Origin: a virus
Strand: one strand, 5' to 3'
DNA: 33,972 nucleotides
Virus record (IMG/VR): IMGVR_UViG_3300009422_000806
Span: 1 to 33,972 of that record
Part shown: in pieces, positions 12,415-33,963 of the stretch
Layout: every line of letters starts with the position of its first letter
Position numbering within the stretch: position 1 is the stretch's first letter
Translations under genes and position numbers: made by a program
The notes under the pieces: model-generated
The model's input: only the letters and a program-made list of their open reading frames with translations
The model's database searches: none
Told to the model about the DNA's origin: nothing

Positions 12415-13083
12415 ATGCTTACGCTATTCACATCTGGAAGTACAGACGAACCTAAGATTGTATCGCACAAATGGTCGTACATTAATCGTTGTGCCCAAAA
12501 AAGTGTTGCCGAAATTGGTCTAACTAAAGACGATATAGTACTTGATGTGTTTCCTGCAAACACTATAGCACACTACACTATAACCGCTCTGCCAGCTTAT
12601 ATAAGCGGCGCACAGTACGTTTGTACAGCATTTAATGCTCACACCTACCCTGAGCTTTTTAATAGCGTTAAACCGACGTTTATAGCGTTAATACCGCGTC
12701 ACTTAGAACTACTACAACACACAAAGGGATTTAAAGACTTAGATATGAGTTGTGTACGTTACATGGCTACAGGTTCAAATAAAGTAGAACAAAGTTTTAT
12801 TGATGCGTTTAAAGAACGTGGTGTACAAGTTGTAGCTAATTGGTATGGCATGACTGAATTTCCACCACCGGTAATGATTGGGTATGATAGTCCTAGTTTT
12901 GACTTTAATACTATTAACGCAATGGATACGCATGTAATGTTTAATCCGTTAACTGCTACTTCTAAGTTAGGCGAATGTATTATTAACGGTCGCTCTACAG
13001 GTGATATATTTGATATGGAAACTAAAACATTTTCACATAGAGTAAAGACAGCAAAAGGACGTACTTGGAAAAATGCGTTTTAG
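12415..13083 (+). CDS. Minimal AMP-binding (ANL superfamily) adenylation domain
   Basis: A 222-residue protein with the adenylation-core motifs in order: A3 phosphate loop TSGSTDEPK at residues 6-14, an A4-like stretch with His53, A5 WYGMTE near 142-147, and A6/A7 LGECIINGRSTGD near 188-200. Full ANL enzymes are 500-600 residues; here the region before A3 and the whole C-terminal subdomain with A8 and the catalytic A10 lysine are missing, and the protein ends 20 residues after A7. ANL enzymes activate carboxylates as acyl-AMP. This could be a reduced but functional enzyme, one needing a partner, or a repurposed binder. No internal stop or frameshift suggests decay. Overlaps the next gene by 11 bases. 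Weak ribosome-binding site. Confidence 0.85.
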   Translation: MLTLFTSGSTDEPKIVSHKWSYINRCAQKSVAEIGLTKDDIVLDVFPANTIAHYTITALPAYISGAQYVCTAFNAHTYPELFNSVKPTFIALIPRHLELLQHTKGFKDLDMSCVRYMATGSNKVEQSFIDAFKERGVQVVANWYGMTEFPPPVMIGYDSPSFDFNTINAMDTHVMFNPLTATSKLGECIINGRSTGDIFDMETKTFSHRVKTAKGRTWKNAF

Positions 13084-13603
13084 ATTACTAACCAAAGACG
13101 ACACACCTCTTGTTCAAGAATTTTGCAACTCACAACAGTACAGTAATAACACCTCACTTGAAAAAATGAAATGGAATAGCTGTCCGTTATGGACTGCGGC
13201 TCTAGTTGATAATAAAATTGTTAGTATTGCTGGTACACACGAACTTCCTGAAGTTAGTCCAGATGCATATAGATGTTTATTCCGCGGAGCTCAACTTCCT
13301 GGATTTACACTAGGCACAGGTAGAGATATTTTTAAAACAGGAATACAATTAAGCCAGTTATTAAATTTACAAATTAAATGGGCGTTAGAACAAAACCCTA
13401 AAGCTGAACTTTACATTAGTACTAATATAAATGACGATGGCGGCAAGAGTAAACGCATGAACGATATTATGATGCCACTGTTAGCAAAACGTGGTATATG
13501 GACTCTTGAAAAAGAGATAATGTTGTATAATGTTCCACAGAATTTGTGGCGTATTGATGTTAAGAAGTATACGGAAGTTCGCGAGCATTCGCTAAAGTTC
13601 TAA
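13073..13603 (+). CDS. GNAT-like acyltransferase (tentative)
   Basis: A 176-residue protein whose start (MRFRLLTKDDTPLVQEFCN) has the strand-helix form of GNAT N-acetyltransferases, followed by WTAALVDNKIVSIAGTHELP as the expected central hairpin. A clear acetyl-CoA loop (R/Q-x-x-G-x-G/A) is not obvious; GRDIFKTGIQLSQLL may take its place. I therefore call it GNAT-like only. It is translationally coupled to the adenylation protein, so it may use the acyl group that protein activates. Its 3' end overlaps the convergent halogenase gene by 44 bases. Confidence 0.55.
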   Translation: MRFRLLTKDDTPLVQEFCNSQQYSNNTSLEKMKWNSCPLWTAALVDNKIVSIAGTHELPEVSPDAYRCLFRGAQLPGFTLGTGRDIFKTGIQLSQLLNLQIKWALEQNPKAELYISTNINDDGGKSKRMNDIMMPLLAKRGIWTLEKEIMLYNVPQNLWRIDVKKYTEVREHSLKF

Positions 13604-14744
13604 AACTATATTTGCAAAATAACACTTGTTTTGTTGCAGGCAATTTAACATTGTTAACTTTATCAAAACTTTTCCAGTACTCTGTATGTTCTAATTTGCT
13701 AGTCTTATAATGCATTGATAAGAAGTCTGCTAAGTGTTCGTATAGTGCAGTCCATACTCGATTAAACTTTTTGCTTCCTTTAGGATCATCTAAAAGTTTT
13801 TCTAACATCATTACAGGTCCGTGTACTAAAAACAAACCTGTTGCTTCAAGAGGTTCTAAAAATCCGCAACTTAGTCCTAAACTTAATACATTCTTTTTCC
13901 AAGGTTCTGGATTATAACTGTTTTTAATAGGAACTACAAAAACTTTATCTTTTTTAATACCAGGTGTTTTTGCAATAAATTCTTTTTTAGCATCTTCAAC
14001 ATTAATCATCTTAGAATTAAATGCATATCCGTTACCTGTGCGTTCTTGTATGCTTACACGCCAACGCCAACCGTAGTCCATACTAAAAGTTTGTGTATAT
14101 GGTAATGGTTGTTCGCCTTCTAAATATGCTCCTGGTCCACATACTGCATAATCATTGATTAATGCTTTATGTTTTTTATATTCAACACCTAGTTTACCTC
14201 TAAGTAAACTTTTAAATCCTGTACAATCAATATATAGATCTGCTGTATAATATCCGTTTTCGCATTTTATACCTGTAATACCGTTATCATCAGTGTCAAC
14301 AGATACAACTGTATCGCTTATATGTTTAACACCGTTAGGAATAGCAGACTTGTCACGAATAACATTACCTAAGCGAGTTGCATCTAAGTGGTATGCCCAA
14401 CGCCATTCTTTATCAGGCTTAATATAATCCTTCATCCATTTTAACTGTTCGTCGTGTTCTGTTTCATCAAAACAAAAATGGTGATACCATGATTCGTTTT
14501 CACCATTCCAGTTATTGTGTTGAATTGTATATTTACGAACTGCTCCGCATCCTTCAAACAAATCTTGTTCAGTAACACCAATTTTATCTAAAAAAGTTGA
14601 AATACTAGGAATAGTACTTTCCCCTACTCCAACAATAGGAATATTAGGACTTTCTATTAATGTAACTGTGTGATCAGTTTTTGTCGCAAGATATGCGGCA
14701 GTCATCCAGCCTGCACTTCCACCACCTACAATACAAATTTTCAT
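13560..14744 (-). CDS. Flavin-dependent halogenase (tryptophan-halogenase family, VirX1-like)
   Basis: Uses FADH2, oxygen and halide to form HOX, which is channelled to an active-site lysine to halogenate a substrate. Seen here: FAD-binding GGGSAG at 7-12; C-G-A-V-R-K71 placed as the catalytic Lys79 of PrnA, eight residues before a Trp; G-W226-R-W228-R-V-S at the place of the family WxWxIP motif; and GFLEPLEATG (294-303) with the conserved Glu at 300. The change of I-P to V-S is unusual. At 394 residues it is shorter than PrnA (about 540). Cyanophage Syn10 encodes the iodinating halogenase VirX1, so a phage halogenase has precedent. A flavin reductase is not seen in the window. Last gene of the minus-strand block. 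Confidence 0.92.
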   Translation of the reverse strand: MKICIVGGGSAGWMTAAYLATKTDHTVTLIESPNIPIVGVGESTIPSISTFLDKIGVTEQDLFEGCGAVRKYTIQHNNWNGENESWYHHFCFDETEHDEQLKWMKDYIKPDKEWRWAYHLDATRLGNVIRDKSAIPNGVKHISDTVVSVDTDDNGITGIKCENGYYTADLYIDCTGFKSLLRGKLGVEYKKHKALINDYAVCGPGAYLEGEQPLPYTQTFSMDYGWRWRVSIQERTGNGYAFNSKMINVEDAKKEFIAKTPGIKKDKVFVVPIKNSYNPEPWKKNVLSLGLSCGFLEPLEATGLFLVHGPVMMLEKLLDDPKGSKKFNRVWTALYEHLADFLSMHYKTSKLEHTEYWKSFDKVNNVKLPATKQVLFCKYSFRTLANARELPYTS

Positions 14745-14756
14745 AGGCTAACCCTA

Positions 14757-16001
14757 TTAATTATAAGTTTCTAAACTTAGACTAACAGGAACAAGTTTGG
14801 AAGTTTTAGCATCAAGGTCTACAATAGACATATCACCAGCAAGGCCAGCATCACTAAGATCAAACTTGTAAGGTGCTAACATTGTAACACTATCAGTATC
14901 GTTAATTGATCCTGAAGTAATGTTTGCAGTACCTAAGTCCATAACTTCATTAATTGCATTGCCTTCAACTTTAAAAACTTTAGTTGTTGGATTTACCATG
15001 CTTGGGTTTTGTATTGACGGAAACAAGTAAACGTCTCCAGCATTAATAACTGGCTTACTACCTAGTGACTCATTAGTTTCAAAGCTATCAATAGCAAGTG
15101 TATCTAAGTTTAATGATACAAACTCTTTACAGCCTTCCCAACAAGTATGTGTTAATAGTGTGTTACCATTCATAGTTCCGTATTTGAAACCCATCTGTCC
15201 GCCCATGTCATCTGTACTAGACGAATCATAAGCAACTGACTTAACAGTATCACCATCGTATACCCAGAAGTTAAACTCTGTAGTTTCATCCATAATTAAT
15301 GGAGCACCAACTGCTTTGTTGCCGTTAGTGTTGACATGATAAAATGCACCTTTAGTTGGTGCTGTGTGTGGTGTAATTTTGTTTGTTTCAAGATCTAATG
15401 TTATCAACATATCAGTTGTTTTACCATATGGAAAAAACACAACTTCATTTAATGATTCTACATACACACTATGGATAGAAGCAAACTTCTCTCCGGTTTC
15501 ATGTACAGTAAATGTATTAGCAACAGTATCAAACACAATAATCATTCCACTCATAACCGGTGGGTAAATAATTTTAGTACCAACTGTAATTGGTCGACCA
15601 AAGTTAAAGTGTCCACAGAATGTTTTAGGAGTTTCTGAGCCGTGTACGTTTACACCTTTTTCTTCAATCATTGTAACTTCATTAGTTGTTAAATCTACTG
15701 CCGCAACTCTAATGATGCTATCTACTTTGTCTTTTTGTGTACGCATTACATATGCTGTATTACCTACTACTGCAACACCACGATATCTATCACCGTTATC
15801 GCTTTTATCAAAAAAGTCTACAAACGTAGTTTTATCAGCGTTTATTCTAAGTAATCCTGCTCTTGCTCCTGCGTCTTTGTTAAAATCTCTTGTTTCTTCG
15901 CCTTCGTGACGTGCCTTACCATTAGTAATTACTGACAAAAATTCGCCATTTCCTAAGTGATATGGTTCGTCTAATACCTGTGTAAAATATGTGTTGCTCA
16001 T
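14757..16001 (-). CDS. Beta-propeller-like protein
   Basis: A 414-residue protein made of repeating four-strand units of roughly 45-50 residues, each with an I/V-Y-x-P-P or F-F-P-Y-G strand followed by an I-x-V-F-D-T/L-x-T-N segment, as in beta-propellers. The same logic is found in the two proteins at 23008 and 24242, though this one is diverged. No signal peptide. SD AGGAG at good spacing and a late-type promoter box 20 bases upstream point to strong late expression, suggesting a virion or abundant binding protein rather than an enzyme. The halogenase follows after 12 bases. Function unknown; ligand binding or host attachment is possible. Confidence 0.72.
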   Translation of the reverse strand: MSNTYFTQVLDEPYHLGNGEFLSVITNGKARHEGEETRDFNKDAGARAGLLRINADKTTFVDFFDKSDNGDRYRGVAVVGNTAYVMRTQKDKVDSIIRVAAVDLTTNEVTMIEEKGVNVHGSETPKTFCGHFNFGRPITVGTKIIYPPVMSGMIIVFDTVANTFTVHETGEKFASIHSVYVESLNEVVFFPYGKTTDMLITLDLETNKITPHTAPTKGAFYHVNTNGNKAVGAPLIMDETTEFNFWVYDGDTVKSVAYDSSSTDDMGGQMGFKYGTMNGNTLLTHTCWEGCKEFVSLNLDTLAIDSFETNESLGSKPVINAGDVYLFPSIQNPSMVNPTTKVFKVEGNAINEVMDLGTANITSGSINDTDSVTMLAPYKFDLSDAGLAGDMSIVDLDAKTSKLVPVSLSLETYN

Positions 16002-16019: not shown

Positions 16020-16748
16020 TTATTTATCTGCTATATTGCAGTTTAAGGATAATAGTGAATGCATAAACGAATCGTCAACTCTAGACAATAAGTGTACTCT
16101 TTCAGTATTTCCGTTATTTTCTGTTCCATGCGGAACTAGAGTATTAATTATATATCCTTTGCCCAATTCCATATGGTATTTGCGTTCTCTGTTTTCACCA
16201 AATGTAAAGACTGCATCTTTATTAGTATAAAATGGTACATGTAGTTTCCTCGTCTTTCCGTCAGTATGTGTATCAACTTTTAATCCTGGTGGGTGCAATG
16301 CTATTAGCATTTGTCTTAGAGCTGGTAAGGTTAGCGTTTCTATCATGCTGTTTAAAATACCAAACTTATAAACTTTCATTGGTACACAATCGTAATAGAA
16401 CTTTGCTTCATCTAAATCTTGTAACTCAGGATACATGTCAATATTAGCTTGTGATTTACTCGGACAAGGTACATCTCGTTCTATAGGCCAGCTAACACTC
16501 CATCCTTGAATGTTTCCAAGATAATTACCTACACGATTATCTTTTTTAAATGTTTCGTATATGTCTGGTCTAAGATATTCTTTAGAAGTAAAGCTAAACT
16601 GCAAATGAGATAGTTGTTCTTTGAGTTGTGTATAGTAGTGTTGTAGACTATCTGAATCAATAGAAAAGTCTAGCTCGATTATATCCCATTCGAGACTATC
16701 AAACAACGTATCGACATCTGTTATATGTTTAGCTTGTAAGTGTCTCAT
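16020..16748 (-). CDS. AspH-like 2OG-Fe(II) oxygenase, group A
   Basis: A 242-residue member of the aspartyl/asparaginyl beta-hydroxylase-like cupin family. The iron triad is visible: H161-T-D163 and H207 (in VPHGTENNG), with R217 in ERVHL as the 2-oxoglutarate-binding Arg. LHPPGLKVDTHTD and KLHVPFYTN are the characteristic strands. These enzymes hydroxylate side chains, AspH itself acting on Asp/Asn in proteins. The N-terminal 80 residues are an extra domain compared with its neighbours. It is coupled to the preceding oxygenase by an ATGA overlap. Two close relatives lie at 16745 and 17695, suggesting duplication followed by specialisation. Confidence 0.85.
   Translation of the reverse strand: MRHLQAKHITDVDTLFDSLEWDIIELDFSIDSDSLQHYYTQLKEQLSHLQFSFTSKEYLRPDIYETFKKDNRVGNYLGNIQGWSVSWPIERDVPCPSKSQANIDMYPELQDLDEAKFYYDCVPMKVYKFGILNSMIETLTLPALRQMLIALHPPGLKVDTHTDGKTRKLHVPFYTNKDAVFTFGENRERKYHMELGKGYIINTLVPHGTENNGNTERVHLLSRVDDSFMHSLLSLNCNIADK
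16021..16028 (-). promoter_or_regulatory. T4-late-type promoter box (minus strand)
   Basis: Read on the minus strand, GATAAATA is followed by AC. It lies 20 bases before the ATG at 16001, with AGGAG in between, the same geometry as at 6024. It overlaps the last bases of the upstream oxygenase gene. Confidence 0.68.
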
Positions 16749-17296
16749 ATATAATTCTTTGCCGGTACTTTAAAAAATAAATGTACTCTATCTGTAGAAC
16801 CTTTATTATTAGTTCCGTGTAACCTAGTAGTATTTATTAGATATGCTTTTCCTACTTTTAAGCAATACCTTTTAGTACCAAACTCAAAGAACGATTCTGC
16901 ATTTGCTATGATTGGAATATGTACTTTAAGATATCTATCAGTATCAGTGTGTTGTTGAATAATTGTGCCTGGTGGATGTCCGCTTAAACTAAACTGCCTT
17001 GCTTCAGGAAATAACGCTTTTAACTTTTTAATAATTCCAAATGATAATTCAGTATCTCTATAATTGTCGCTTCTTGCTTTGTGTACGTTCCAAGGCGGAC
17101 AAGGTACAGTGAGATCTTCTAAATTACTTTGTATTCCCCAACCATACACGCCGTCGATGATGTGCTTTTCTGAGTCAACAGTATCTTGTACATTAGTAAA
17201 CTTAAGGTGGGGATAGTTAGTGCATACATTTATATAATAACTTCTAAAGTCAGTATACTCTATAGGGATTGTTATTTCTTTTACATTAAAGCTCAT
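16745..17296 (-). CDS. AspH-like 2OG-Fe(II) oxygenase, group A
   Basis: A 183-residue compact enzyme with HPPGTIIQQHTDTD, giving iron ligands H116 and D118, distal H160 in LHGTNNKGSTDR, and R170 for 2-oxoglutarate. It shares the LKVHIPI strand and the KVGKAYLINTT turn with its neighbours at 16020 and 17695. It is the shortest of the group, close to the minimal catalytic domain. The start overlaps the phosphatase-like gene by 11 bases, so the two are probably co-translated. Substrate unknown; hydroxylation of a protein or peptide side chain is the default expectation for the family. Confidence 0.85.
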   Translation of the reverse strand: MSFNVKEITIPIEYTDFRSYYINVCTNYPHLKFTNVQDTVDSEKHIIDGVYGWGIQSNLEDLTVPCPPWNVHKARSDNYRDTELSFGIIKKLKALFPEARQFSLSGHPPGTIIQQHTDTDRYLKVHIPIIANAESFFEFGTKRYCLKVGKAYLINTTRLHGTNNKGSTDRVHLFFKVPAKNYI

Positions 17297-17732
17297 CTAG
17301 TATATCCCTTATGATGTTGTACGCAAACTTTCCATCGTGTTTAATTCTAGTGTTATTTACATAATCTGCAACGGCTTTACTACGTGACTCGCCTTTCATA
17401 CAATGTACATGTATTGTCCCAACTGCTTCTTTAAGGAAATATGAAATATGTCGAATTTGTGTTAGTGTTGGTGCAACGGCTGTGTAGTATGCTTTTATAT
17501 CTTCACCCCAGTTAGTTTGATCTTCACTAACATCATCAAAACATAAACTTAATACGTTAGGATGAAATTGAGTAAAGTATGGTTCGCTGTCTGGGCCGCC
17601 AGTTGAATCAATACATATGTAATAGTCATTAGTATCTTCAACTGTTGTATCGGTGATGTTTTCGCTTTGCATTTTAGATACAAAGTCTTTTTTACTATAA
17701 CTTACGGCAATCATCTGTCCAAATCTTTCCAT
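17286..17732 (-). CDS. Tyrosine/dual-specificity phosphatase-like protein
   Basis: A 148-residue protein with the cysteine-phosphatase P-loop H-C111-M-K-G-E-S-R117-S near the end of a strand (GTIHVHCMKGESRS), fitting HCx5R(S/T). A D-D-V acidic stretch at 66-68 and D78 are candidates for the general acid. The size fits small DSP/PTP-like enzymes. ATG at 17732 has AGGA at nine bases; a second ATG at 17714 is possible. It overlaps oxygenase genes on both sides, so it belongs to the same operon. It could remove phosphate from a protein or small molecule; the kinase-like protein at 22590 is a possible counterpart. Confidence 0.8.
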   Translation of the reverse strand: MERFGQMIAVSYSKKDFVSKMQSENITDTTVEDTNDYYICIDSTGGPDSEPYFTQFHPNVLSLCFDDVSEDQTNWGEDIKAYYTAVAPTLTQIRHISYFLKEAVGTIHVHCMKGESRSKAVADYVNNTRIKHDGKFAYNIIRDILDEL

Positions 17733-18342
17733 ATAAATGTATCCTGTCTGTTGTACCTTTGTTTTCTACGCTGTGTGGAATAGTTGTGTTAACAACATAT
17801 GCCCAGCCTGGTTCCATATGATATTCTTCTCCTGCAATAATCCAATTACTATCTGCATTAGTGTGTATAGGAATATGTACACGAAGTTTATCTGGAGCGT
17901 CTTGGTGTGTAATTAGTTTAGTGCCTGGTGTATGAATTGTTACTAACCATTTTTTACTACGCATAGGTAAACTGTTTACAACGTCTAGTGCATAGCCACT
18001 AAAACATTGTCTAGGGTTAAGTTGATCGTTGTCATCATCTCGATACTCTGGCTTTGCACACCCTTGTTCAAATGGCTTAGGTCCTGTTTCATCGCTGTTC
18101 CAACATAGTGTATAGTATGCTGTGTCGTCCATTAGACGATGTCCTGTCTTTGCTTCAGGATCGCTAATAGGAAATTGCCATATGTGGTGTTGTTCGCCTA
18201 TAACAAACTTCCAATCACTATAGTTGTTTTCTAAATTATCATACCAAGTACGTAATTTATCAATGTCAACTTTGAATAGTTTTTTAACTGCCCAACCTAA
18301 GTTAGCTTCGTCATGCTTTTCTATATAACGCTTCATTTCCAT
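17695..18342 (-). CDS. AspH-like 2OG-Fe(II) oxygenase, group A
   Basis: A 215-residue oxygenase with iron ligands H146-Q-D148 (ITHQDAPDKLRVHIPI) and H190 (IPHSVENKGTTDRIHL), and R200 for 2-oxoglutarate. The strand VHIPIHTNAD and the GWAYVVNTT turn align with the relatives at 16020 and 16745. The N-terminal half contains an insert rich in Asp/Asn (about 92-112). The ATG shares one base with the preceding stop and GAGG lies at seven bases. As for its neighbours, side-chain hydroxylation is the expected chemistry and the substrate is not known. Confidence 0.85.
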   Translation of the reverse strand: MEMKRYIEKHDEANLGWAVKKLFKVDIDKLRTWYDNLENNYSDWKFVIGEQHHIWQFPISDPEAKTGHRLMDDTAYYTLCWNSDETGPKPFEQGCAKPEYRDDDNDQLNPRQCFSGYALDVVNSLPMRSKKWLVTIHTPGTKLITHQDAPDKLRVHIPIHTNADSNWIIAGEEYHMEPGWAYVVNTTIPHSVENKGTTDRIHLYGKIWTDDCRKL

Positions 18343-19811
18343 TAGGCGTACCTCGGGTGAGTCAACTGTACGCCATTGCGTACTCTAGAATTCATGTCAA
18401 CTGCAACATAGTCGTGTCCGTATAGTACAAGATCGTCAGGTATTTGCTGTTCAAATTTTAACCATTGCTGTTCTAACTCTTCAGGCTCTACATTCCAATG
18501 AAGCATTTCACTTGACCAAATATTAGTAGTCCATAATACTTTAGTACCATATACGCTATTAATAATGTCAAACAGTTTAGTGTTGTCATACACAAGGTCA
18601 ATTACATGAAACTCATGTTTTAGGTTTCTGTATCTATCCCACAACCTTTGAAATGCTAACGATCCACCAAACTCTCTTAATTCTTGTTCCCAGAACTTTT
18701 TATAAGTTCCCCTATACGTAGAACTAAAGTTATAATCTAAATCATGTTCAAGCAACCACTTGTCTAAGTCATAGCCGTCCCACGTTTCAAGTAAATGTTT
18801 CTTATAGTTTAAACTTGCTTCACACCAATCAAAGTAATGTACCGTTGTACCACTGTGAAATCCGTTTGCATTTAATATTGCAAGGGGTTTAAATCCTGCT
18901 GATGCTGAAAACAAATGGTCAATTTGGTTTCCATTAGTTCTAACACCTTCACTACTTAACGTTTCTGTGTTAAACGCATACACACGGTTCTTTTCTATTT
19001 CTTCTTGATATGCTTGTTTTCTAATCCAAGCACGTTGGCTTTGGTTAGTTAAATCGTCTACTAAAGGTGATTGTTTGTTGTACCAAATCTTTCCAAGTAG
19101 ATCCGAGTCAATGTATGGATATAAAAATACCTTACAAGCTCGCATATCATTATCTAAATTGTCAATACGTATGTTATTACGCATAGCGATGTCAATCCAA
19201 TTACTGCCATCACTGGTCGTATCATACTTTGTTGTTCCTTTGTTATTAATAACCCACTTGGGTGTGTAAGTACTGTGAATAGAATCTTTACTCATTTGAT
19301 AATTTTGTAGTTCAGGCTTTCTATCCCAAAAGACTCCCATTTCATCAAACGGTGGTTTACCAAGTTCAACCCACTTGGCTAAATTTACAAAAAGATATTG
19401 CCTGTGTAATCCAGGATAAGCACCTTTGGTCATGTAATGTTGTTTTGTTTTGTCCATGATATGGCCAACTACAAAGAACTGCGGATTGTTTTCAGCATAT
19501 TCTACACTTTGTTGTAGTAAACTTGGGCCTCTATGTAATAACAACCCTTGACATGCTACCATTGCAAACTCTTTGTCTGCACTTAATGCTTCTTCAAGTA
19601 TTGTTTCTACACGATTGTGAAATCCAACGTAACTACACATGCCCATTTTAATCATACGATTAATATAAAAGTATGTCATATCAAATGTGCGTTTCTGTAC
19701 TGTTGAATTTGTAATATCTCTTGAGATGTCTAGTATACCAACACCTACGTTGTTTTCAATGCTTAGGTTTTCATAGTACCTATCAACAGTTATGCTATTC
19801 CAGTCTTTCAT
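18342..19811 (-). CDS. Unrecognised 489-residue protein, possibly glycosyltransferase-like
   Basis: I do not recognise this protein with confidence. The frame is open to 19868, but ATG at 19811 lies immediately after the preceding stop with AAGGA upstream, giving 489 residues (MKDWNSITVDRYYEN start). Visible features: an alpha/beta N-terminal part with VACQGLLLHRG and FFVVGHIMDKTKQHYMTKG, then LHRQYLFVNLAKWVELGKPPFDEMG, which reads like a nucleotide-sugar-type fold; a Trp- and Tyr-rich middle; LAILNANGFHSGT and VHYFDWCEAS near residues 320-345; and a C-terminal VLYGHDYVAVDMNSRVRNG. No signal peptide or membrane segment. It is locked between two oxygenase genes, so it probably shares their pathway. 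Confidence 0.6.
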   Translation of the reverse strand: MKDWNSITVDRYYENLSIENNVGVGILDISRDITNSTVQKRTFDMTYFYINRMIKMGMCSYVGFHNRVETILEEALSADKEFAMVACQGLLLHRGPSLLQQSVEYAENNPQFFVVGHIMDKTKQHYMTKGAYPGLHRQYLFVNLAKWVELGKPPFDEMGVFWDRKPELQNYQMSKDSIHSTYTPKWVINNKGTTKYDTTSDGSNWIDIAMRNNIRIDNLDNDMRACKVFLYPYIDSDLLGKIWYNKQSPLVDDLTNQSQRAWIRKQAYQEEIEKNRVYAFNTETLSSEGVRTNGNQIDHLFSASAGFKPLAILNANGFHSGTTVHYFDWCEASLNYKKHLLETWDGYDLDKWLLEHDLDYNFSSTYRGTYKKFWEQELREFGGSLAFQRLWDRYRNLKHEFHVIDLVYDNTKLFDIINSVYGTKVLWTTNIWSSEMLHWNVEPEELEQQWLKFEQQIPDDLVLYGHDYVAVDMNSRVRNGVQLTHPRYA

Positions 19812-19812
19812 A

Positions 19813-26471: not shown

Positions 26472-27377
26472 TTATTGTTCTTTCCTAATGTATATATCGC
26501 TTAAACACCCGCATACACTTTTACCGCACATGATAGGTTCAGTAGGCAAGCTATATCGTTCTAGGTTTCCAATTGGTCCTCCAAACTGACAATCTGCTCT
26601 GTACATGTTACCCCACATGTCTACATTAATTCCGTCAAGTCCGGCCCAACATTTCCAACCGCTAAACTTATTCATATCAGACACAATTAAATCGTTTGCT
26701 GTAACGTATTCAGAGTCTAGTAATAAGTCTCCTCTATGAAGATGCTTGTCATTAACAGGTCTAGCAAATGGCCATAACCCAATAATTTCTTTTTGTTCTT
26801 TAGTATAAGGGGCCACTGTATTAGTAATATAGTCTCCACTAGTTTTATCTAAAATAACTTTGGGCCATATTGTCATTCTATCAGTATTTTCAAATAAGAA
26901 CTTTGCTATTTCGTATTGTTCTTTAAATGCTTCCTCGCCCTCTGGTAACATTAAGTTAACAATGATTTCACAGTTTGTTTCATTTGCAATATTAACAAAG
27001 TGTTTAGCATCAGAATATTCAGGATGATAACTTATCATCATTCCATCTGTGTACTGATCAATTTCTTTAAAGTATTCAACCTTTTGACTACCGTTAGTAA
27101 CAAAACTAAATGTGTGCCCTTGTTGCTTAACTAACTTTGCAAGATCAATAAAGTGTTTCCAATACGTAGGTTCTCCTCCGCTTAGTCGATAGCAGATTTC
27201 CTTAGGAACTTTAAAGTTCTCAACAAAATTTTTAACAGTTTCCCATTTAGGTTGTCCTGTACTTCCGTTATGTAATATGTCTGGGCAGTACGAACATCGG
27301 TAGTTACACTTATTACTTAAAGTCCAACTTACTAGGAACCAATCATTTTTTGCTTTATCTTCGTAGGTTAATTTCAT
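26472..27377 (-). CDS. Radical SAM protein with C-terminal auxiliary cysteines
   Basis: A 301-residue radical SAM enzyme: C24-N-Y-R-C28-S-Y-C31 near the N-terminus, LSGGEPTYW for SAM binding, SFVTNGS and MISYHPEYSDAKHF as barrel strands. The C-terminus contains GWKCWAGLDGI, ADCQFGGPIGN and CGKSVCGCLSD, fitting one or more auxiliary Fe-S clusters (SPASM-like). It resembles the protein at 33037 in length, motif and the GW-x-C-x-AG block. The start overlaps the preceding oxygenase stop by four bases. It is the last gene of the long minus-strand block. Confidence 0.9.
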   Translation of the reverse strand: MKLTYEDKAKNDWFLVSWTLSNKCNYRCSYCPDILHNGSTGQPKWETVKNFVENFKVPKEICYRLSGGEPTYWKHFIDLAKLVKQQGHTFSFVTNGSQKVEYFKEIDQYTDGMMISYHPEYSDAKHFVNIANETNCEIIVNLMLPEGEEAFKEQYEIAKFLFENTDRMTIWPKVILDKTSGDYITNTVAPYTKEQKEIIGLWPFARPVNDKHLHRGDLLLDSEYVTANDLIVSDMNKFSGWKCWAGLDGINVDMWGNMYRADCQFGGPIGNLERYSLPTEPIMCGKSVCGCLSDIYIRKEQ

Positions 27378-28030
27378 TCGCTCATGCTGTGCTTAATAAT
27401 TAAATCATGTGTGCGTTGATTTAATTTAACTGTGAGTATTAATGAATGTAATCCGTTAGTGTAACTAAACACACTATGCTCTTTTTGAAAGTTAATAAAG
27501 TGTACATACTCTGGATCAGGGTAGATTAATTGCTTGTCAAGTATGTGTGCATAGTTCTCTGGTTGTGCTTTGCCAAACGTGCATAACAGTCTAAAGTACT
27601 CTGGACCTACTCCTGGAAAGTCTCTGTGTGGCGGAAAGAACCCACCTTCATCTACTCTAAGTAAATGCACTCGACCAATGTCAGGTGCAAACGTATCTAC
27701 TAAACTAGCAAGTTGTGGAATATTCTTATACACTTCTGTTGGTGTTGTAAAGTTTTCTTCTTTCATTTCAACATCGTGATAACGTTGCATGTGACCAAAG
27801 CTGTTTAAATGATAGTTGTCCATTACATCACCTGTGTGACTTGTAACAGGTAATCCCCAACGATTGTTATGGGCATCTTTCTTTTGGTTATAAGGACACC
27901 AGTTATCTTTAAATTGCTCTAGTTCCTGTACAAGGTTGTGTCCGTCAACTTTTAACTTTAGTTTAACCATGTCTCCCATGTTACACAGGCTATTCCATAG
28001 TAAGGCTCTTTCAATATTATTTTGTTCCAT
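27374..28030 (-). CDS. 2OG-Fe(II) oxygenase-like protein, divergent
   Basis: A 218-residue protein with a double-stranded beta-helix signature: RVDEGGFFPPHRDFP gives H135 and D137, EHSVFSYTNGLHS gives candidate distal His185, with a basic residue after the last strand less clear than in its relatives. It does not share the GW-x-SLTLHG block or the NKGxTxR block, so it is the outlier among the six oxygenase-type proteins. A hydroxylase function is probable; a repurposed cupin is the alternative. It overlaps the genes on both sides. Confidence 0.7.
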   Translation of the reverse strand: MEQNNIERALLWNSLCNMGDMVKLKLKVDGHNLVQELEQFKDNWCPYNQKKDAHNNRWGLPVTSHTGDVMDNYHLNSFGHMQRYHDVEMKEENFTTPTEVYKNIPQLASLVDTFAPDIGRVHLLRVDEGGFFPPHRDFPGVGPEYFRLLCTFGKAQPENYAHILDKQLIYPDPEYVHFINFQKEHSVFSYTNGLHSLILTVKLNQRTHDLIIKHSMSE

Positions 28031-28661
28031 TATATTCCTTGTTGTAACTGTTGCAGACTAATTGCATAATTGTTTCATTCCACTGATCAATTGGTTCACT
28101 GTGTACAATTATATGTATCCTAGATTTGCTACTGTTGTTTGTAATTTGATGTATACTTCCTAGATCAATTAGTCTCGATTCACCTTCTTGCCATTCTACA
28201 TTACCATAATTTTCAATGTTAAACACTACTTCTTTGGGGTGTGTAATAGCAATATTGATTCCGCCTAATAATTGTCCATGTAAAAAGTCTTTGTGTGGAC
28301 TAACATACCCGCCTGGGTCAACTATCATTATTCTAATTCTTCCATACTTTTCAAAAGGTATATTTTTAGTAATCCATTGTTTAGTTAACGGAAAGTGCTT
28401 TGCTATATCAGTCCATTCTTTAGTACCTAATGTGAATCCTTTTTCTTTGTAAGCATCATCACTGTCAGTCATTATAGAACTGTGTCCGTGAAGTGTTAAA
28501 CTGCGCCAACCTTTGCCATCAGTATCCCTATGGGGGACAGCAATGTCAACACTTTTTAATATTTCATCTCTAATATCATTTGAAGGCTTTGGAATATCTA
28601 ACAGAAGTGTAGCAAGGCCGCTGTTGTGTCTAATCCAGTTAAACTTTTCTACTAGATCCAT
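28017..28661 (-). CDS. AspH-like 2OG-Fe(II) oxygenase, group B
   Basis: A 214-residue oxygenase with DPGGYVSPHKD (H123, D125), SIHQITNNSSKSR (H171) and R181 in SRIHIIVH for 2-oxoglutarate. The block GWRSLTLHG at 51-59 and the spacing to the iron site match the protein at 19813. The two lie about 8 kb apart in separate operons on the same strand, consistent with duplication. Neighbours on either side are another oxygenase-like gene and a methyltransferase-like gene, with overlaps of 14 and 10 bases. Confidence 0.85.
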   Translation of the reverse strand: MDLVEKFNWIRHNSGLATLLLDIPKPSNDIRDEILKSVDIAVPHRDTDGKGWRSLTLHGHSSIMTDSDDAYKEKGFTLGTKEWTDIAKHFPLTKQWITKNIPFEKYGRIRIMIVDPGGYVSPHKDFLHGQLLGGINIAITHPKEVVFNIENYGNVEWQEGESRLIDLGSIHQITNNSSKSRIHIIVHSEPIDQWNETIMQLVCNSYNKEYNGTK

Positions 28662-29341
28662 GGCAATTCTCTAAATTTATCGTCTAACGTCATGTCTACT
28701 AATTCACTTGCTAGTGTTTGAATATATGTTCCATTGACTGTTACCATATCAACATACCATTTAATTTTATCTTGTGCTAATAAACTAATTAATTCGTTTT
28801 GTTTTTTAAGTCTTGCCTTTGCATCAAACATTATGCAATTAGGAAAGTATAAAAATACATTACTTAAACAAAATAATCCTACATTACCTTGGCATTTTGT
28901 TAAAAACTGTTCTACAGCTCGTATATCAAATAAATCAACTTGGTTGTAATTGTAGCTCTTAGTTACATCTATATTATATTTTTCTCTTGTTTTTTCTAAT
29001 GCCATTGGACTAATATCAATAACATATGTATGTTTGGCTAGTAACTGACTTGGAGTGTCACCACTTGCTAACGCAACAACACAATCAGGATCAATTATTG
29101 TTTTTAACGGTACTTCAGTATTCTCTTTAAAATATACATTATAATTTAAAATACTATTCAACACACTGATATTTTCAACTGTATGTTTGTCATCTAAGAA
29201 GATAGTTCCTAGCGGTACTCCTTTAGTTGTAGAGTACTTAACTTTTAGTGCATGAGCAGTATGATACTCAGCAATATTTCTTGCTATACTATTAAGACTG
29301 TCGTTGTTATAGTCAATATGTTTCCAAGTTATTTTGTTCAT
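28652..29341 (-). CDS. Rossmann-fold protein, possible SAM methyltransferase
   Basis: A 229-residue alpha/beta protein. VVALASGDTPSQLL followed by TYVIDISPMALEKTREKY resembles motif I and the acidic end of strand 2 of class I SAM-dependent methyltransferases, then NQVDLFDI and GLFCLSNVFLYFPN would be the strand 3 and 4 regions. The glycine-rich loop is degenerate (a single Gly), so nucleotide or SAM binding is likely but not certain. It is coupled by four-base overlap to the tail-fibre-like gene upstream, so it may act on that protein. I would not assign a substrate. Confidence 0.5.
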   Translation of the reverse strand: MNKITWKHIDYNNDSLNSIARNIAEYHTAHALKVKYSTTKGVPLGTIFLDDKHTVENISVLNSILNYNVYFKENTEVPLKTIIDPDCVVALASGDTPSQLLAKHTYVIDISPMALEKTREKYNIDVTKSYNYNQVDLFDIRAVEQFLTKCQGNVGLFCLSNVFLYFPNCIMFDAKARLKKQNELISLLAQDKIKWYVDMVTVNGTYIQTLASELVDMTLDDKFRELPWI

Positions 29342-29916
29342 GTTGATATCCTGTACAATGGCATAGCATATTTGTTGCCATCTAATTCAACTTGAACATA
29401 TTTCTCTATTGGTCCTACTTCGTTAACTACTGTGTCTGTTATTTTTAAATTACCACTAGTTATATTACCTTGTGTAATTAAGTTACCATTACTATCAAGT
29501 TTTAATTTAATAGACATGTCTGTATTATTAGACAATGCTATAACCATCTCATTAGCAACTGCACCTTGTTTATTATAATCCTTAGATACAAAAAATTGTA
29601 TAGCACCATTCAACGGTGTTTCATCATGACAATACCCTAAACTACTGCCTGGCTTAGTTCTTCCATAAATTTGAACACCACCTAAGTTATCTCCTGGTTC
29701 AACTGGTAACTTATTCTGCTGTGTTCCTCTTGATTTAGTTATTCCAAGAAAAATAGGTTCATTGCCACCTGTGGCTCCGTCAATATATAACAACTGTTCG
29801 TTAGCAGTAGAACGCACAATAAGATTTGCATTCTTTTCTTCTGTACCAATAACAGTTTGTTCATGTAGTTCTATAGGATCTACATCATGGCAAACAACCT
29901 TATATCCTACGTCCAT
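29338..29916 (-). CDS. Tail-fibre-like structural protein embedded in the enzyme operon
   Basis: A 192-residue protein with the tip-module features of marine phage fibres: LGITKSRGTQQNKLPVEPGD, then DNLGGVQIYGR, MVIALSNNTDMSIKLKLDSN, repeated G-N-L/I strands (NGNLITQGNITSGNLKI) and a C-terminal KYVQVELDGNKYAMPLY that resembles fibre ends. It lacks the Mtd-like N-terminal anchor of the 457-residue fibre at 10997, so it is either an accessory fibre piece or a free client. It sits between a twitch radical SAM gene and a methyltransferase-like gene, with overlaps of one and four bases, an unusual place for a structural gene. A candidate substrate of the surrounding enzymes. Confidence 0.72.
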   Translation of the reverse strand: MDVGYKVVCHDVDPIELHEQTVIGTEEKNANLIVRSTANEQLLYIDGATGGNEPIFLGITKSRGTQQNKLPVEPGDNLGGVQIYGRTKPGSSLGYCHDETPLNGAIQFFVSKDYNKQGAVANEMVIALSNNTDMSIKLKLDSNGNLITQGNITSGNLKITDTVVNEVGPIEKYVQVELDGNKYAMPLYRIST

Positions 29917-31217
29917 TATATATGTTTTCCTAATTCCGGAAACGTTTTTCTAAAGTCCGTTCCGCGGCGTTCGTCTAATACTCGTAGGTAGTCTTGTAGC
30001 TGTGGTAACTTATCAGACCAATCTTCTGACATCATATAGTTAACAATTCCGTCCCAGCGTGGTTTGCCCATTGCATGATTGTTCCAATCTGTATTAAACT
30101 TCTGTCTTTGAATAAAACTTTCAATATTACCCTTAGCAAACTCTTTAAGCTCTCTAGGTAATGTTCTAACATTTAAGTAACTAGGAAAATAAACTAAATG
30201 CGTATTAATTAGTCCGCCACCAAACGGTAATACATTAACTTTACTAAAGCCTTGATCTATTTTCCACTCAGCTAGTTCATGTATGTATGCAACATTTAAT
30301 AATTGTACTGCGGCCGCAACGTTTATTATAATATTATCTAAACTTGAATCAAGTTTATGCAAGTTTTTTTGAATATCAGCCCACTTACTTGGATAACGTA
30401 TATAATCATTCCTGTCACCATATGCATCTATACTAAAATTAAATGTAATTTCTTTAAAGTGTTGCCATAGTACAAATAATTTGTCAGGCAACTCTAATCC
30501 GTTACTGTTATAACGTATACAAATATCTTTAGCATAATTATTATCAACCATAAACTGTAGTATAGCATAATGCTCTGGTATTAGCAATGGTTCGCCACCA
30601 GCAAAGTATAATTCTTTGATATGCTGTGATTGGCCTTTCATTGATTCTATAAAAGAACCTTTCTTATACCAAGTATAATCAAAGTCTTCGTCCCAACTTG
30701 TGTCTGCAATTAAATTCTTGTCTCTGTATTTGGGCTTTTGCAGTTTCCATTCTTTAATCCAACTGCTTGAATCATGTGGACTACACATAACGCACTTTAG
30801 TTGACATAGATTTCCAAGTCGTAGGTCAAAGTAAGGAATGTTAACAGGTATGTTACCTTGATCATCTGTTTTTGCTACAATACTTTCAATGTCTAACCGT
30901 TTATTCCATACTTTAGTTTCCCACTGACGCTTACTCACAATGCCACGTTCTTCTTCTGCAAAGCATTTACGACAACTTGCCGGAACTTCTTCATTAAGCA
31001 TTTGTAATCGTGTAGTACGCATATGTTCACTGTTCCATACTTCTTCAATAGTATGGTTACGCATGTTCATAGCAATGCCGTCCTTTTTAACAAGGCCTAC
31101 TGTTTTATCGTCTTCAAGTCCTGCACCTGATGCATTAGCCGTACAACAAACTCTAACGTCACCATTAGGTCGAGTTGCTAAGTGTATCCACGGTAAAGGG
31201 CAAAATGTCTTACTCAT
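29916..31217 (-). CDS. Twitch-domain radical SAM protein
   Basis: A 433-residue protein, the largest of the group. The N-terminus FCPLPWIHLATRPNGDVRVCC and C82-x2-C85 form the auxiliary cysteine segment; the radical SAM motif is C138-Q-L-K-C142-V-M-C145; LYFAGGEPLLIP is the GGE motif. The frame reaches 31241, but ATG at 31217 starts at MSKTFCPLPW and has AAAGG seven bases upstream, so I use it. It overlaps the preceding gene's stop by eight bases. Family relatives at 21530 and 25347. It directly precedes the tail-fibre-like gene in the operon. Confidence 0.9.
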   Translation of the reverse strand: MSKTFCPLPWIHLATRPNGDVRVCCTANASGAGLEDDKTVGLVKKDGIAMNMRNHTIEEVWNSEHMRTTRLQMLNEEVPASCRKCFAEEERGIVSKRQWETKVWNKRLDIESIVAKTDDQGNIPVNIPYFDLRLGNLCQLKCVMCSPHDSSSWIKEWKLQKPKYRDKNLIADTSWDEDFDYTWYKKGSFIESMKGQSQHIKELYFAGGEPLLIPEHYAILQFMVDNNYAKDICIRYNSNGLELPDKLFVLWQHFKEITFNFSIDAYGDRNDYIRYPSKWADIQKNLHKLDSSLDNIIINVAAAVQLLNVAYIHELAEWKIDQGFSKVNVLPFGGGLINTHLVYFPSYLNVRTLPRELKEFAKGNIESFIQRQKFNTDWNNHAMGKPRWDGIVNYMMSEDWSDKLPQLQDYLRVLDERRGTDFRKTFPELGKHI

Positions 31218-32208
31218 GTTCGTGCCTTTCAAATTGTGCATTTAGTTTATCAAAACTTCCACATTGTTTCGAACATTCTTTAAGTCCAGTGGAATTCCAA
31301 CAACTACTAATCTTGTTAAAGAAGCCGTTGTTAAAGATCTCTGCAAATGAATACTTATGTAAATTAGGGTATTCTTTAATTTTTATCATATAATCTATTC
31401 TTGAATGGGAGTGTTGTGGTAACCATTCTAAATCTAGCCAACAACATGGACTAACATTTCCATTAGCGGCAATATACATTTGTTTATCTTCAACTGCCTT
31501 ACAATTAATAGTTGGTAATGTTTCTTTCCTAGCTTTTTCTGCTGGTGCTATCATTTCTAAACTTTTTTGCGATGGTAATAATATGTGTGTTACATTATAA
31601 TTGTCATCAATAACTTCAAACTGTCCGTCTTTAAATCTAGTAGTGTGTTTAATACTAAATCCTTTAAAGCCCATGTCTTTACTTAGTTGCTCACATGCAT
31701 CTACTTGATGTTCGTTGTGTGCAAATACTAGCATATCCCATCTTGCATCTCCGCCTGCATCAATAAATGTTTGTGCATTTTTTAGAATCTTATTAAAGTC
31801 TGTACTAATTCTGTATAGTGAATGAGTATCTCCTAAGCCATCAATACCAAATACAATCTTTACTCCTGCTTCTGCAAGTCCTTTGAACCAACTTGAAGTT
31901 CTAGCACTTCCGTTAGTGTGCATTTGTAAAGTCATTTCAGGATTATGCTTACGTAAGTATTGCATTATGCCTAGAGTATCTTTGGCCATAATAGGATCGC
32001 CTAAGTTGCCACACATATTTAAAAACTTTAGTTGCTGTACAAAACTTATAGGAAACCACTCTATAAAAGTAGCGTAACTAATTTCTGTAAGATCTAATCC
32101 GTCAAGTTCTGGGCCTCCGTTGACTCTTCTTGGACACATAGGACAACGTGCTTGACACCTAGTTGTAACTTCTAAATGTATTGACGTTATGTCTTCGTAG
32201 TTATACAT
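31210..32208 (-). CDS. Radical SAM protein with SPASM-like C-terminus
   Basis: A 332-residue paralogue of the protein at 20554. Motif C18-Q-A-R-C22-P-M-C25 near the N-terminus; NMCGNLGDPIMAKD stands where GGE is expected, as in its paralogue; HTNGSART and FGIDGLGDTHSLYR are barrel strands. C-terminal INCKAVEDK, GNVSPCCWLD and CSKQCGSF supply auxiliary-cluster cysteines. The shared replacement of GGE by G-N/S-x-GDP marks these two as a distinct subfamily. The start shares a base with the methyltransferase stop upstream. Confidence 0.9.
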   Translation of the reverse strand: MYNYEDITSIHLEVTTRCQARCPMCPRRVNGGPELDGLDLTEISYATFIEWFPISFVQQLKFLNMCGNLGDPIMAKDTLGIMQYLRKHNPEMTLQMHTNGSARTSSWFKGLAEAGVKIVFGIDGLGDTHSLYRISTDFNKILKNAQTFIDAGGDARWDMLVFAHNEHQVDACEQLSKDMGFKGFSIKHTTRFKDGQFEVIDDNYNVTHILLPSQKSLEMIAPAEKARKETLPTINCKAVEDKQMYIAANGNVSPCCWLDLEWLPQHSHSRIDYMIKIKEYPNLHKYSFAEIFNNGFFNKISSCWNSTGLKECSKQCGSFDKLNAQFERHEHE

Positions 32209-32810
32209 TATACATTTCCTATAATCATAAATCTCTTATACTTTGATAACTCTAATTCATGTGCCGCATCAATATCTATATTACATGTTTTTTTAAATTC
32301 TTCTAACGAGCTTACACAATTAACATGTTCGTCTAACTCATAATAGTTATTACTTTGCAATATAACCTTTGTTCCTTTAGGAACTCTGTCTAACCAAGTT
32401 TTATATTGTGTAGGTGTAACGTGTTCGCAACTTGTGTTAATAACAAAATACGGATCAGTTGTGTACTCGTACTTGCACATATCTTCTGTTACTGCTTTAA
32501 AACGTCCTGCCATCTCTTGACGCTTGTTAACTGTTGATGCAATTTTTTCACAGGCGGGGTCAATATCGATACTAGTAATATGTTTAGTTCCTAGGTCTCT
32601 TTTGAACATCATACTAGCAAGTATACCATTCCAGCCTCCAAAGATAACTATATCAGCGTTAGCAATATGGGCTCTGTTTTCCATTTTTTCAATTAGCCAA
32701 GACTTGGATTGGAGTTGGCCTCCCCATAAACTTTCTAAGGTACGATCTCTGTCTGCACTATTGCGAATAGCATCTGCCCAAAACTTTATGTCTTGAATAT
32801 CAATCTTCAT
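32208..32810 (-). CDS. Class I SAM-dependent methyltransferase-like protein
   Basis: A 200-residue Rossmann-fold protein. IVIFGGWNGILASMM (about 54-68) is motif I with a G-G-W-N-G loop, and HITSIDIDPACEKIA gives the acidic residue that binds the SAM ribose. FKAVTEDM and VINTSCEHV fit motifs II-III. The size is typical for a small methyltransferase without a large substrate domain. It overlaps a small gene upstream by four bases and the radical SAM gene downstream by one, so it belongs to the same unit. Substrate unknown. Confidence 0.78.
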   Translation of the reverse strand: MKIDIQDIKFWADAIRNSADRDRTLESLWGGQLQSKSWLIEKMENRAHIANADIVIFGGWNGILASMMFKRDLGTKHITSIDIDPACEKIASTVNKRQEMAGRFKAVTEDMCKYEYTTDPYFVINTSCEHVTPTQYKTWLDRVPKGTKVILQSNNYYELDEHVNCVSSLEEFKKTCNIDIDAAHELELSKYKRFMIIGNV

Positions 32811-33040
32811 CGTTTTCCTTGTAATTTTAAATTAAGCGAAAAGTTCTCTACTAATAGTTTAGTCACAGTTGCCATCATTATCTCAGGCTCTGGCGTTCTT
32901 TGATGTATTTCCAATACGTAACTAGCCATTAATAAAAACGCTTGTTCTTCATTAATATTAAGTTCGCCCCAGTCTATAGGGTCAATACTTTCAGACTCCA
33001 TTGCTAGTGTTGCTAGGTCTTTGATGCTTAAATTAGTCAT
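32807..33040 (-). CDS. Small acidic helical protein
   Basis: A 77-residue, mostly helical, strongly acidic protein (MTNLSIKDLATLAMESESID start) with no cysteine-rich or glycine-rich core. It lies between a radical SAM gene and a methyltransferase gene with four-base overlaps on both sides. In peptide-modification clusters this position and size would suit a precursor peptide or a recognition (leader-binding) protein, but the sequence lacks the features of known precursors and I make no such call. Not recognised. Confidence 0.65.
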   Translation of the reverse strand: MTNLSIKDLATLAMESESIDPIDWGELNINEEQAFLLMASYVLEIHQRTPEPEIMMATVTKLLVENFSLNLKLQGKR

Positions 33041-33963
33041 GCTACTACCTTTGGTATTTTACTATCTGCACTACTTACACATGTAGCAGTTACACATTTA
33101 GATGGTGTCTTAAACAGCGTAAAACCGTCTTGTAGCGTACCTAGTGGTTCATCGCTACAACTATATGCTCTCTTAACTTCATTGCCACGTATGATACAAC
33201 TCTGATAGCCTGCATTGCAGTTCCATCCTTCAAATTTATTAAACCCGTATGCATTTAATCGCTCTGCTTGATCTATAAAATGCGTAGAGCCACTAACATC
33301 AGTTAGTCTAATTTGGTAGACTTCTTCTCCGTTCCATTCTTGCGGGAACCCTTTTTGCATTTTTTCGACTTGGTCGGTAGTATATCCATCGATGATAAAC
33401 GAGGCGGTAGGATCAGATTGGGGTTTGAGAGTAACATTAATGCCTCTGGCGGCAAATCGTTGTAAGCGTTCGTAAAGTTCTTCAAACATTTCAGGAACCA
33501 TAACTTGATTGATCGTAACATATACTCCACCTTTCATTAATTGTAAACACTTGTCACCAAACTCTTGCTCTTTAGCAAACTCTGCATGGTAACTTGCTGT
33601 AATACTTCTACGTTGTAGACTACTTGTAGTTTCTAACCATTTGTTCCACCATTTGCTTCCTGGACTTAGATTAGTTGTCATGTGTACGCTTTGATACTTA
33701 GCATCTGCATCATCAGCATAGTATGCTACTAGCTCACTAAACAATTTGTAGGCAGTTGGTTCACCGCCGCTAAAACTAAAATGGAATTCTGTAAATCCGT
33801 TTGCTCTTGCTTGACGTTTTATTTCGTCAATAGTATTTGTATAAAGTTCAAATGCTTGATGATCAGGTTTATTAGAATTAGCATACGGCCAGCAGTAACT
33901 ACAACTGTAATTACAGAAGCGACCAAGAATCCAACTAACATTAAACAACGGTTTGTCTAACAT
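33037..33963 (-). CDS. Radical SAM protein with C-terminal auxiliary cysteines
   Basis: A 308-residue radical SAM protein: C17-N-Y-S-C21-S-Y-C24, FSGGEPTAYK for SAM binding, VHMTTNLS and TASYHAEFAKEQEF as barrel strands, and a C-terminus with GWNCNAGYQSC, AYSCSDEPLGTL and CVTATCVSS for auxiliary clusters. It is related to the protein at 26472. ATG at 33963 fits the family start (LFNVSWILGRFCN), but the frame is open to the window edge and no ribosome-binding site is visible in the remaining nine bases, so an upstream start cannot be excluded. First visible gene of the minus block; the operon may continue beyond the window. Confidence 0.88.
   Translation of the reverse strand: MLDKPLFNVSWILGRFCNYSCSYCWPYANSNKPDHQAFELYTNTIDEIKRQARANGFTEFHFSFSGGEPTAYKLFSELVAYYADDADAKYQSVHMTTNLSPGSKWWNKWLETTSSLQRRSITASYHAEFAKEQEFGDKCLQLMKGGVYVTINQVMVPEMFEELYERLQRFAARGINVTLKPQSDPTASFIIDGYTTDQVEKMQKGFPQEWNGEEVYQIRLTDVSGSTHFIDQAERLNAYGFNKFEGWNCNAGYQSCIIRGNEVKRAYSCSDEPLGTLQDGFTLFKTPSKCVTATCVSSADSKIPKVVA

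Follow-up and report, generated by a model that had tools for sequence, protein, structure and literature searches.

The host-recognition cluster of pelagimyophages and cyanomyophages is a hypervariable island by the tail fibre genes, in which glycosyltransferases occur with radical S-adenosylmethionine (SAM) cassettes (PMC7029224). In the T4-related Campylobacter phages CP220 and CPt10, an interchangeable block of 10-12 genes carries five radical SAM genes, of 11-12 in all (PMC2853527), and a marine T4-like environmental genome holds 12 radical SAM genes together with an A-type Fe-S carrier (PMC5332604). The cluster of halogenase and 2-oxoglutarate (2OG)/Fe-dependent dioxygenase (2OGFeDO) genes in the jumbo cyanophage S-SSM6a has been read as leading to a halogenated amino-acid or sugar metabolite or to capsule decoration (PMC7824862). 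Here we analyse a stretch of 33,972 nucleotides from a virus (IMG/VR record IMGVR_UViG_3300009422_000806, positions 1 to 33,972; hereafter the window). Its right part, positions 12415-33963, is an island of 26 tightly packed open reading frames (ORFs), lettered A to Z. A sequence-only reading had taken this island for one phage system of side-chain-modifying enzymes, possibly decorating the fibre and propeller proteins encoded among them.

The island shares with the pelagimyophage and cyanomyophage cluster its place beside tail fibre genes and its radical SAM proteins. It differs from that cluster in its carrier, which appears to be a RaK2-group jumbo phage, in being ordered and conserved where the other is non-syntenic, and in its propellers and adenylation domain, which have no match in the INPHARED phage collection. 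The S-SSM6a cluster likewise unites a halogenase, several 2OG oxygenases and a methyltransferase; its description includes carbamoyltransferases and a methylase of the HemK kind and makes no mention of radical SAM proteins (PMC7824862), whereas seven radical SAM proteins, propellers and fibre genes dominate the present island. The CP220/CPt10 blocks have a glycine amidinotransferase in place of AspH-type oxygenases, halogenase and propellers, and their two versions are unrelated in sequence (PMC2853527), while our island is syntenic at 45-70% identity. The environmental genome is radical SAM-rich like the relatives of our locus, and its radical SAM genes were not treated as a modification pathway (PMC5332604). 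An A-type Fe-S carrier (PF01521) is also phage-encoded on six of 15 records in our set, all six being related records rich in radical SAM genes (G014, G015, G016, G018, G022 and G024). Among cultured phages, Pelagibacter phage Mosig EXVC030M has an AspH-type oxygenase like protein R of the island beside its tail fibres, in a cluster that also holds sugar aminotransferase, carbamoyltransferase, TauD and radical SAM-like genes; by tblastn it was the only INPHARED phage with an R-like gene (32% identity).

Within the open-access papers covered, a search combining halogenase, radical SAM and phage returned no paper on this set. The view that the whole set had not been described as one pathway holds for this combination, but the idea of such a pathway has precedents (PMC7824862, PMC7029224, PMC2853527), and the parts were already known as radical SAM cassettes or modules and as the cyanophage halogenase cluster. 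What is new is a large set of fixed composition that includes propellers and fibre ORFs and is kept across about 30 jumbo-phage lineages, together with the late-promoter and co-occurrence evidence that ties parts of the island to adhesion genes.

A co-inherited gene block beside host-adhesion genes

The island is one conserved, co-inherited unit and no chance pile-up. IMG/VR was scanned for relatives with C, R, N, I and Z, and many were found; lineage counts refer to 30 lineages distinct at the nucleotide level and spanning V to L. The core is kept together, in essentially the same order, in 28 of the 30. Of the loci seeded on R, 24 reached 19 kb, and in every one of them Z, W, X, V, R, Q, O, N, M, L and J were present in nearly the same order. 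The conserved block comprises about 22 genes, ordered and beside host-adhesion genes, and the claim of one system agrees with this result, the genes not being scattered independently among relatives. For nearly all island genes dN/dS was 0.05-0.25, which indicates purifying selection; the higher values of T (about 0.48) and X (about 0.26) were both measured on very close pairs. Genes G, D, K and Y are optional across lineages, and the subset Z-X-W-V occurs in other phages without the rest of the island. The 21.5 kb are 99.7% coding, with a largest internal gap of 39 bp, and 21 of the 25 junctions overlap, much as the sequence-only reading had it, some of these overlaps depending on the choice of start.

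Two sets of genes are inherited all or none. R, N and O occur together in 28 lineages, and two have none of them; U, T and S occur together in three, and the other 27 have none of these. The lineages without R-N-O (L190 and L200) are represented by records of 59.6 and 84.8 kb, which encode a diverged R-like paralogue and nowhere an N, an O or a halogenase; these lineages swap out R, N, O, H, F, E, C and A and keep V, Q, P, M, L, K, J and I. The replacement module (L190 932-15351, L200 927-15411), which stands in for the propeller/halogenase half of the island, consists of class III aminotransferase, short-chain dehydrogenase/reductase, PP-loop, nucleoside triphosphate (NTP)-transferase-like, HAD, TauD and AspH genes. 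Since the two lineages share these replacement genes, the absence of R-N-O may be one evolutionary event. Pairwise distances of F follow those of E (partial r 0.82), and those of J and I likewise track each other; both are pairs of neighbouring genes, so that linkage may account for it.

The same DNA as the window, itself a fragment of a virus record, lies inside a 125.8-kb IMG/VR record (G001) with island proteins 99-100% identical. On G001 the island is flanked on one side by tail-fibre-type ORFs (71.7-78.6 kb, by eye), which are preceded by an ORF of 4,938 aa, and on the other by Mtd (window 10997..12370, plus strand), a fibre-type protein with a Major-tropism-determinant N-terminal domain (PF18454, E=3.6e-11) that heads the predicted Mtd-A-B transcript. 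Within the island, U (29338..29916, minus), a member of the U-T-S triplet, looks fibre-domain-like by eye and gave no family match. Three ORFs are propeller-like. N (23008..24249, plus) was modelled with confidence as a beta-propeller of eight blades, and its sequence has eight P[YRFA]G[ED]-like motifs; the AlphaFold2 (AF2) model had a pLDDT of 86.6 and a pTM of 0.88 and matched BamB and cd1 at a TM of about 0.6. O (24242..25372, plus) is a paralogue of N (blastp E=1e-10), and D (14757..16001, minus), which is followed by the halogenase gene C, has weak similarity to O. Fold matches linked the propellers to proteins that are annotated as virion structural components in jumbo phages, among them CBB, a member of the carrier's group, and the best viral fold match was a collagen-repeat protein of Hokovirus. 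These matches are no more than suggestive.

The late promoter motif of T4 is TATAAATA. Exact TATAAATA gave no matches as a late promoter; the relaxed form NATAAATA gave a signal. ATAAATA is depleted in the window (4 observed versus 19 expected). Of the four copies, three (at 6025-6031, at 10962-10968 on the plus strand and at 16021-16027 on the minus strand) precede an ORF start by 20-35 bases, namely those of ORF 6052, Mtd and D, respectively. A CATAAATA-type motif was found upstream of Mtd in 18 of 18 distinct orthologues and NATAAATA at -20 to -60 of D in nine of nine, while for most enzymes no orthologue had a late-type motif upstream. In one clade without D, such a motif lies directly before the halogenase. 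The structural half of G001 has NATAAATA upstream of 10 of its 54 genes, and the motif also stands at the head of the operon running from a nucleoside diphosphate (NDP)-sugar dehydrogenase into Z...Q. When operon heads were walked for late motifs only Mtd was consistent, the motif of D being internal to the J-D run, and scans for sigma-70 promoters and terminators were at or below chance. These data suggest late expression, at the time of the virion genes, for Mtd, D and the halogenase that follows D. Fibre adjacency, the co-mobile U-T-S triplet and the late motifs at Mtd and D support the link to adhesion proteins that the earlier reading had suggested. A 17-bp element, GCATAAGTATATTTAAC (20541..20557, minus), lies in the divergent gap between J and K; single copies of it occur in 46 of 290 loci (in the window, 1 versus 0 expected), and loci lacking K still keep it upstream of J.

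The halogenase slot and the enzyme families

The halogenase occupies a slot in which alleles are exchanged, and it does not vary in step with the other island genes: its pairwise distances are uncorrelated with theirs (r=-0.03, against 0.34-0.95 for these). C (13560..14744, minus) is a predicted flavin-dependent halogenase of 394 aa (PF04820, E=1.3e-89), as had been proposed, VirX1-like and short. Its nearest solved structures are Trp 5-halogenase and VirX1 (PDB 6qgm), and it is more than 100 residues shorter than the solved PF04820 members. VirX1, the halogenase of cyanophage Syn10, belongs to the same family (about 32% identity in the Syn10 genome match) and has 531 aa. GGGSAG is found at position 7 of C, and Lys71, aligned with the VirX1 Lys, is invariant in the alignment; the WxWxIP motif becomes WRWRVS, with both Trp kept and IP replaced. 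Other alleles of the slot lack the second Trp of WxW (for example, L197 15121-16338 and L201 15173-16396). This loss makes hydroxylation instead of halogenation possible, and these alleles may be hydroxylases rather than halogenases.

The sole gene whose distances clearly follow the halogenase is B (13073..13603, plus), in tail-to-tail overlap with C. B is a conserved protein read by eye as GNAT-like; neither alone nor aligned with 13 relatives did it match any Pfam or PDB entry, which leaves the GNAT label unconfirmed. Directly behind Mtd, A (12415..13083, plus) is a truncated adenylation (AMP-binding) domain of 222 aa. The mini adenylation domain proposed before was recovered by PF00501 (E=1e-18) over profile positions 168-330 of 384 only; A begins at TSGSTxxPK, without the N-subdomain, and is still 53-87% identical in relatives.

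All seven proteins read as radical SAM enzymes (K, L, P, Q, V, W and Z) scored above the PF04055 cut-off, with CX3CX2C intact and extra Cys of the twitch/SPASM type. The N-terminal twitch was called with NCBIfam NF033640, whose cut-off of 170 bits was exceeded by L (21530..22603, plus; 223 bits), P (25347..26468, plus; 245 bits) and V (29916..31241, minus; 419 bits). K (20554..21540, plus; PF04055 E=2.8e-7) has a C-terminal SPASM/twitch region, W (31210..32208, minus; E=8.8e-8) is of the radical SAM/SPASM type, and Q (26472..27377, minus; E=1.2e-10) has a C-terminus that is twitch-like by its Cys pattern. Z (33037..33963, minus; E=2.1e-11) is the most widespread member of the island, with 212 relatives confirmed in IMG/VR, the best 80 of which were kept. 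On G001, nine of ten radical SAM matches fall within 82.7-103.1 kb, the tenth being QueE, so that the grouping exceeds chance.

Five of the six proposed oxygenases passed the cut-off of PF05118 (Asp_Arg_Hydrox) as AspH-type 2OG oxygenases, all on the minus strand: E (16020..16748; E=3.2e-6; HxD161..H207), F (16745..17296; E=2.4e-12), H (17695..18342; E=5.9e-13), J (19813..20514; E=2.8e-13), which is kept together with I and has weak PDB matches to beta-hydroxylase and Pro hydroxylase, and S (28017..28661; E=8.1e-12) of the U-T-S triplet. The sixth, R (27374..28030, minus), a probable diverged oxygenase of the AspH/proline-hydroxylase type, had no Pfam match and was recognized by a weak profile match to L-proline cis-4-hydroxylase (E=0.016) and by its ligands (HxD135..H185). 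The HxD...H iron ligands are kept in all six. PF05118 enzymes act on proteins, lipids and free amino acids, so that an AspH-like sequence alone does not mean a protein substrate. R-like oxygenases are also found in three loci from Bdellovibrionota and unclassified bacterial metagenome-assembled genomes (L281, L283 and L284), where they adjoin twitch/B12 radical SAM and PP-loop enzymes; an HTTM protein stands beside the bacterial R homologue once. These neighbourhoods possibly represent a bacterial cousin pathway.

The kinase M, the phosphatase G, the methyltransferases and the truncated adenylation domain A are weaker calls. M (22545..23045, plus) is a putative compact kinase of the APH/choline-kinase type with an HxDWxLSN...D motif read from the sequence; in a mixed alignment of 12 kinase-like proteins and three T homologues, eight of the 15 proteins gave APH matches (best E=1.9e-4). 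G (17286..17732, minus), with the motif HCMKGESRS, resembles protein tyrosine phosphatases (PTPs) and dual-specificity phosphatases; it matched phrog_5614 (E=9e-9) and Pfam DSPc at only E=0.012. Of the two methyltransferase-like proteins, X (32208..32810, minus) fell below the cut-off of PF13649 (E=0.0038), and T (28652..29341, minus), of the U-T-S triplet, is methyltransferase-like by eye with no Pfam match. I (18342..19868, minus) is predicted to join a GT-A-like glycosyltransferase N-domain to a COMT-like C-domain (AF2 pLDDT 77.5). Its Foldseek matches, all weak, were LARGE1, mimivirus R699, the PBCV-1 capsid glycosyltransferase, COLGALT1 and COMT, a weak resemblance to viral capsid and collagen glycosyltransferases. 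PDB sequence searches with I and N gave nothing credible. The remaining ORF, Y (32807..33040, minus), encodes a lineage-specific protein of 77 aa that is absent from most lineages.

The carrier phage and its genome

The left part of the window encodes FolE, QueE, an exonuclease-like protein, a MoxR-type ATPase, a DUF2201/VWA protein and the Mtd-N fibre protein, FolE and QueE of the 7-deazaguanine pathway (938-2895) lying upstream of the MoxR/VWA genes. Sinorhizobium phage Phosso keeps the order FolE-QueE-ATPase-VWA with no island after VWA, so the island was added to, or lost from, that site. In its major capsid protein, G001 shares 66-71% identity with Phosso, Vibrio phage 2.275.O, GAP32, CBB and PA5oct, and only 37% with Pelagibacter phage HTVC008M. 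These identities place the carrier as an uncultured marine jumbo myovirus of the RaK2/GAP32/PA5oct group, neither a cyanophage nor a pelagiphage. A cyanophage or pelagiphage origin, prompted by the halogenase matches, was ruled out by the capsid protein. Genomes of this group exceed about 200 kb; the window and G001 are fragments, and the largest record bearing the island has 267.8 kb.

The island continues past the end of the window with two further radical SAM ORFs, an SGNH-like ORF and a sugar-nucleotide dehydrogenase. Upstream of it, G001 carries glycosyltransferase-like ORFs and the NDP-sugar dehydrogenase, which shares 52% identity with its HTVC008M counterpart; a carbamoyltransferase-like ORF at 1158-2966 of G001 is distant from the island. 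ORFs that look by eye like SGNH/GDSL hydrolases recur near fibre or island genes (window 3352-4293; G001 2967-3800 and 84795-85661). Megablast of the island and tblastn of Z, N, I, A and D against INPHARED gave no match, and no sequenced isolate carrying the block was found.

Possible targets and products of the island

We tentatively favour, while holding it open to considerable doubt, an island that carries out iterative chemical decoration of the phage adhesion apparatus. The twitch/SPASM radical SAM proteins and AspH-type oxygenases would put new bonds or hydroxyls on the co-encoded propeller and fibre proteins or, alternatively, on a glycan attached to them, R possibly acting on N and O, and S and T on U. 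I, with J, would extend hydroxylated sites and may add sugar there, and the swappable flavin enzyme, co-transcribed late with the propeller D, would add a strain-specific halogen or hydroxyl as a variable finishing step. Receptor binding might be diversified in this way, or the adhesin hidden. The link to adhesion is drawn from the fibre-gene adjacency, the co-mobile triplet and the late motifs described above. The strict co-presence of R with N and O, the propeller fold matches, the weak glycosyltransferase resemblance of I and the R-like oxygenase beside the Mosig tail fibres also speak for it. An extended form of the proposal seems unlikely. In it, a dedicated pathway, expressed late, would put multiple hydroxyl groups, radical SAM modifications, sugars and halogens on the propeller and fibre proteins of the virion, and receptor binding would be diversified by exchange of the halogenase as a 'serotype' gene.

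Several points weigh against decoration of adhesins. Modification of any virion protein is something that we infer rather than directly observe. No late motif precedes N or O, which might be not substrates but partner or binding proteins, and halogenase divergence follows no propeller in pairwise distances. The co-occurrence of U, T and S rests on three lineages and the joint absence of N, O and R on two, and adjacency alone yields linkage. In addition, the NDP-sugar dehydrogenase and glycosyltransferase-like ORFs upstream and the sugar-type replacement in L190 and L200 suit a glycan or a small molecule.

The last point leads to the strongest alternative, that of a heavily decorated product made of sugar or of sugar and amino acid, which would be either a glycan on the host surface that blocks superinfection or a diffusible secondary metabolite. 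Sugars or amino acids would be the substrates of the radical SAM proteins and oxygenases, M would phosphorylate, A would activate an acid and the halogenase would modify the product. The GT-A-like I and the APH-type M fit this proposal, as do the sugar genes upstream, the L190/L200 replacement by class III aminotransferase, NTP-transferase-like, TauD and PP-loop genes, and the Mosig cluster with its sugar aminotransferase and carbamoyltransferase, and a like reading was proposed for the cyanophage halogenase/2OG cluster (PMC7824862). However, no complete sugar-nucleotide pathway lies within the 21 kb, the propellers and the fibre-like U lie among the enzymes and are inherited with them, D and Mtd resemble late genes of the virion type, and the structural matches of I are weak. 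From the sugar-type genes, the replacement module, Mosig and the published precedent, we consider a glycan or small-molecule product almost as plausible as adhesin modification.

It is improbable that the island is a hypervariable region piling up unrelated auxiliary genes of no single pathway. The allele-swapped halogenase slot, the optional G, D, K and Y, and the occurrence of Z-X-W-V alone in other phages would suit such a region, but the core stays together in 28 of 30 lineages, the co-presence of R-N-O and of U-T-S is strict, and the genes are under purifying selection. Still less probable is a cluster for a ribosomally synthesized and post-translationally modified peptide (RiPP), in which the radical SAM proteins, oxygenases and halogenase would modify a small precursor peptide that is then exported. 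RiPP pathways do include twitch/SPASM radical SAM proteins, oxygenases, halogenases and methyltransferases, and the 77-aa ORF Y is present. Against this, Y is missing from most lineages, and the island family searches matched no recognition-element or transporter family. The coding density and gaps of at most 39 bp leave no room for a separate precursor, and no conserved small ORF was found within the island. Finally, hypermodification of DNA bases as an extension of the upstream 7-deazaguanine genes can scarcely be entertained, for although FolE and QueE, itself a radical SAM protein, share the window, Phosso has FolE-QueE-MoxR-VWA without the island, no base-modification family was matched in the island, and we know of no base modifiers in the AspH and PF04820 families.

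Phage virions are seldom viewed as chemically elaborated objects, and a conserved 22-gene block of radical SAM enzymes, 2OG oxygenases and a halogenase, kept by many marine jumbo phages, would be an unexplored source of C-H chemistry. Even with a glycan or a metabolite as its product, the island is a defined, testable gene set, for which natural deletion variants (L190, L200 and the lineages without U-T-S) and an isolate with a related cluster (Mosig EXVC030M) are at hand. The island could explain how marine jumbo phages vary or conceal their adhesins.

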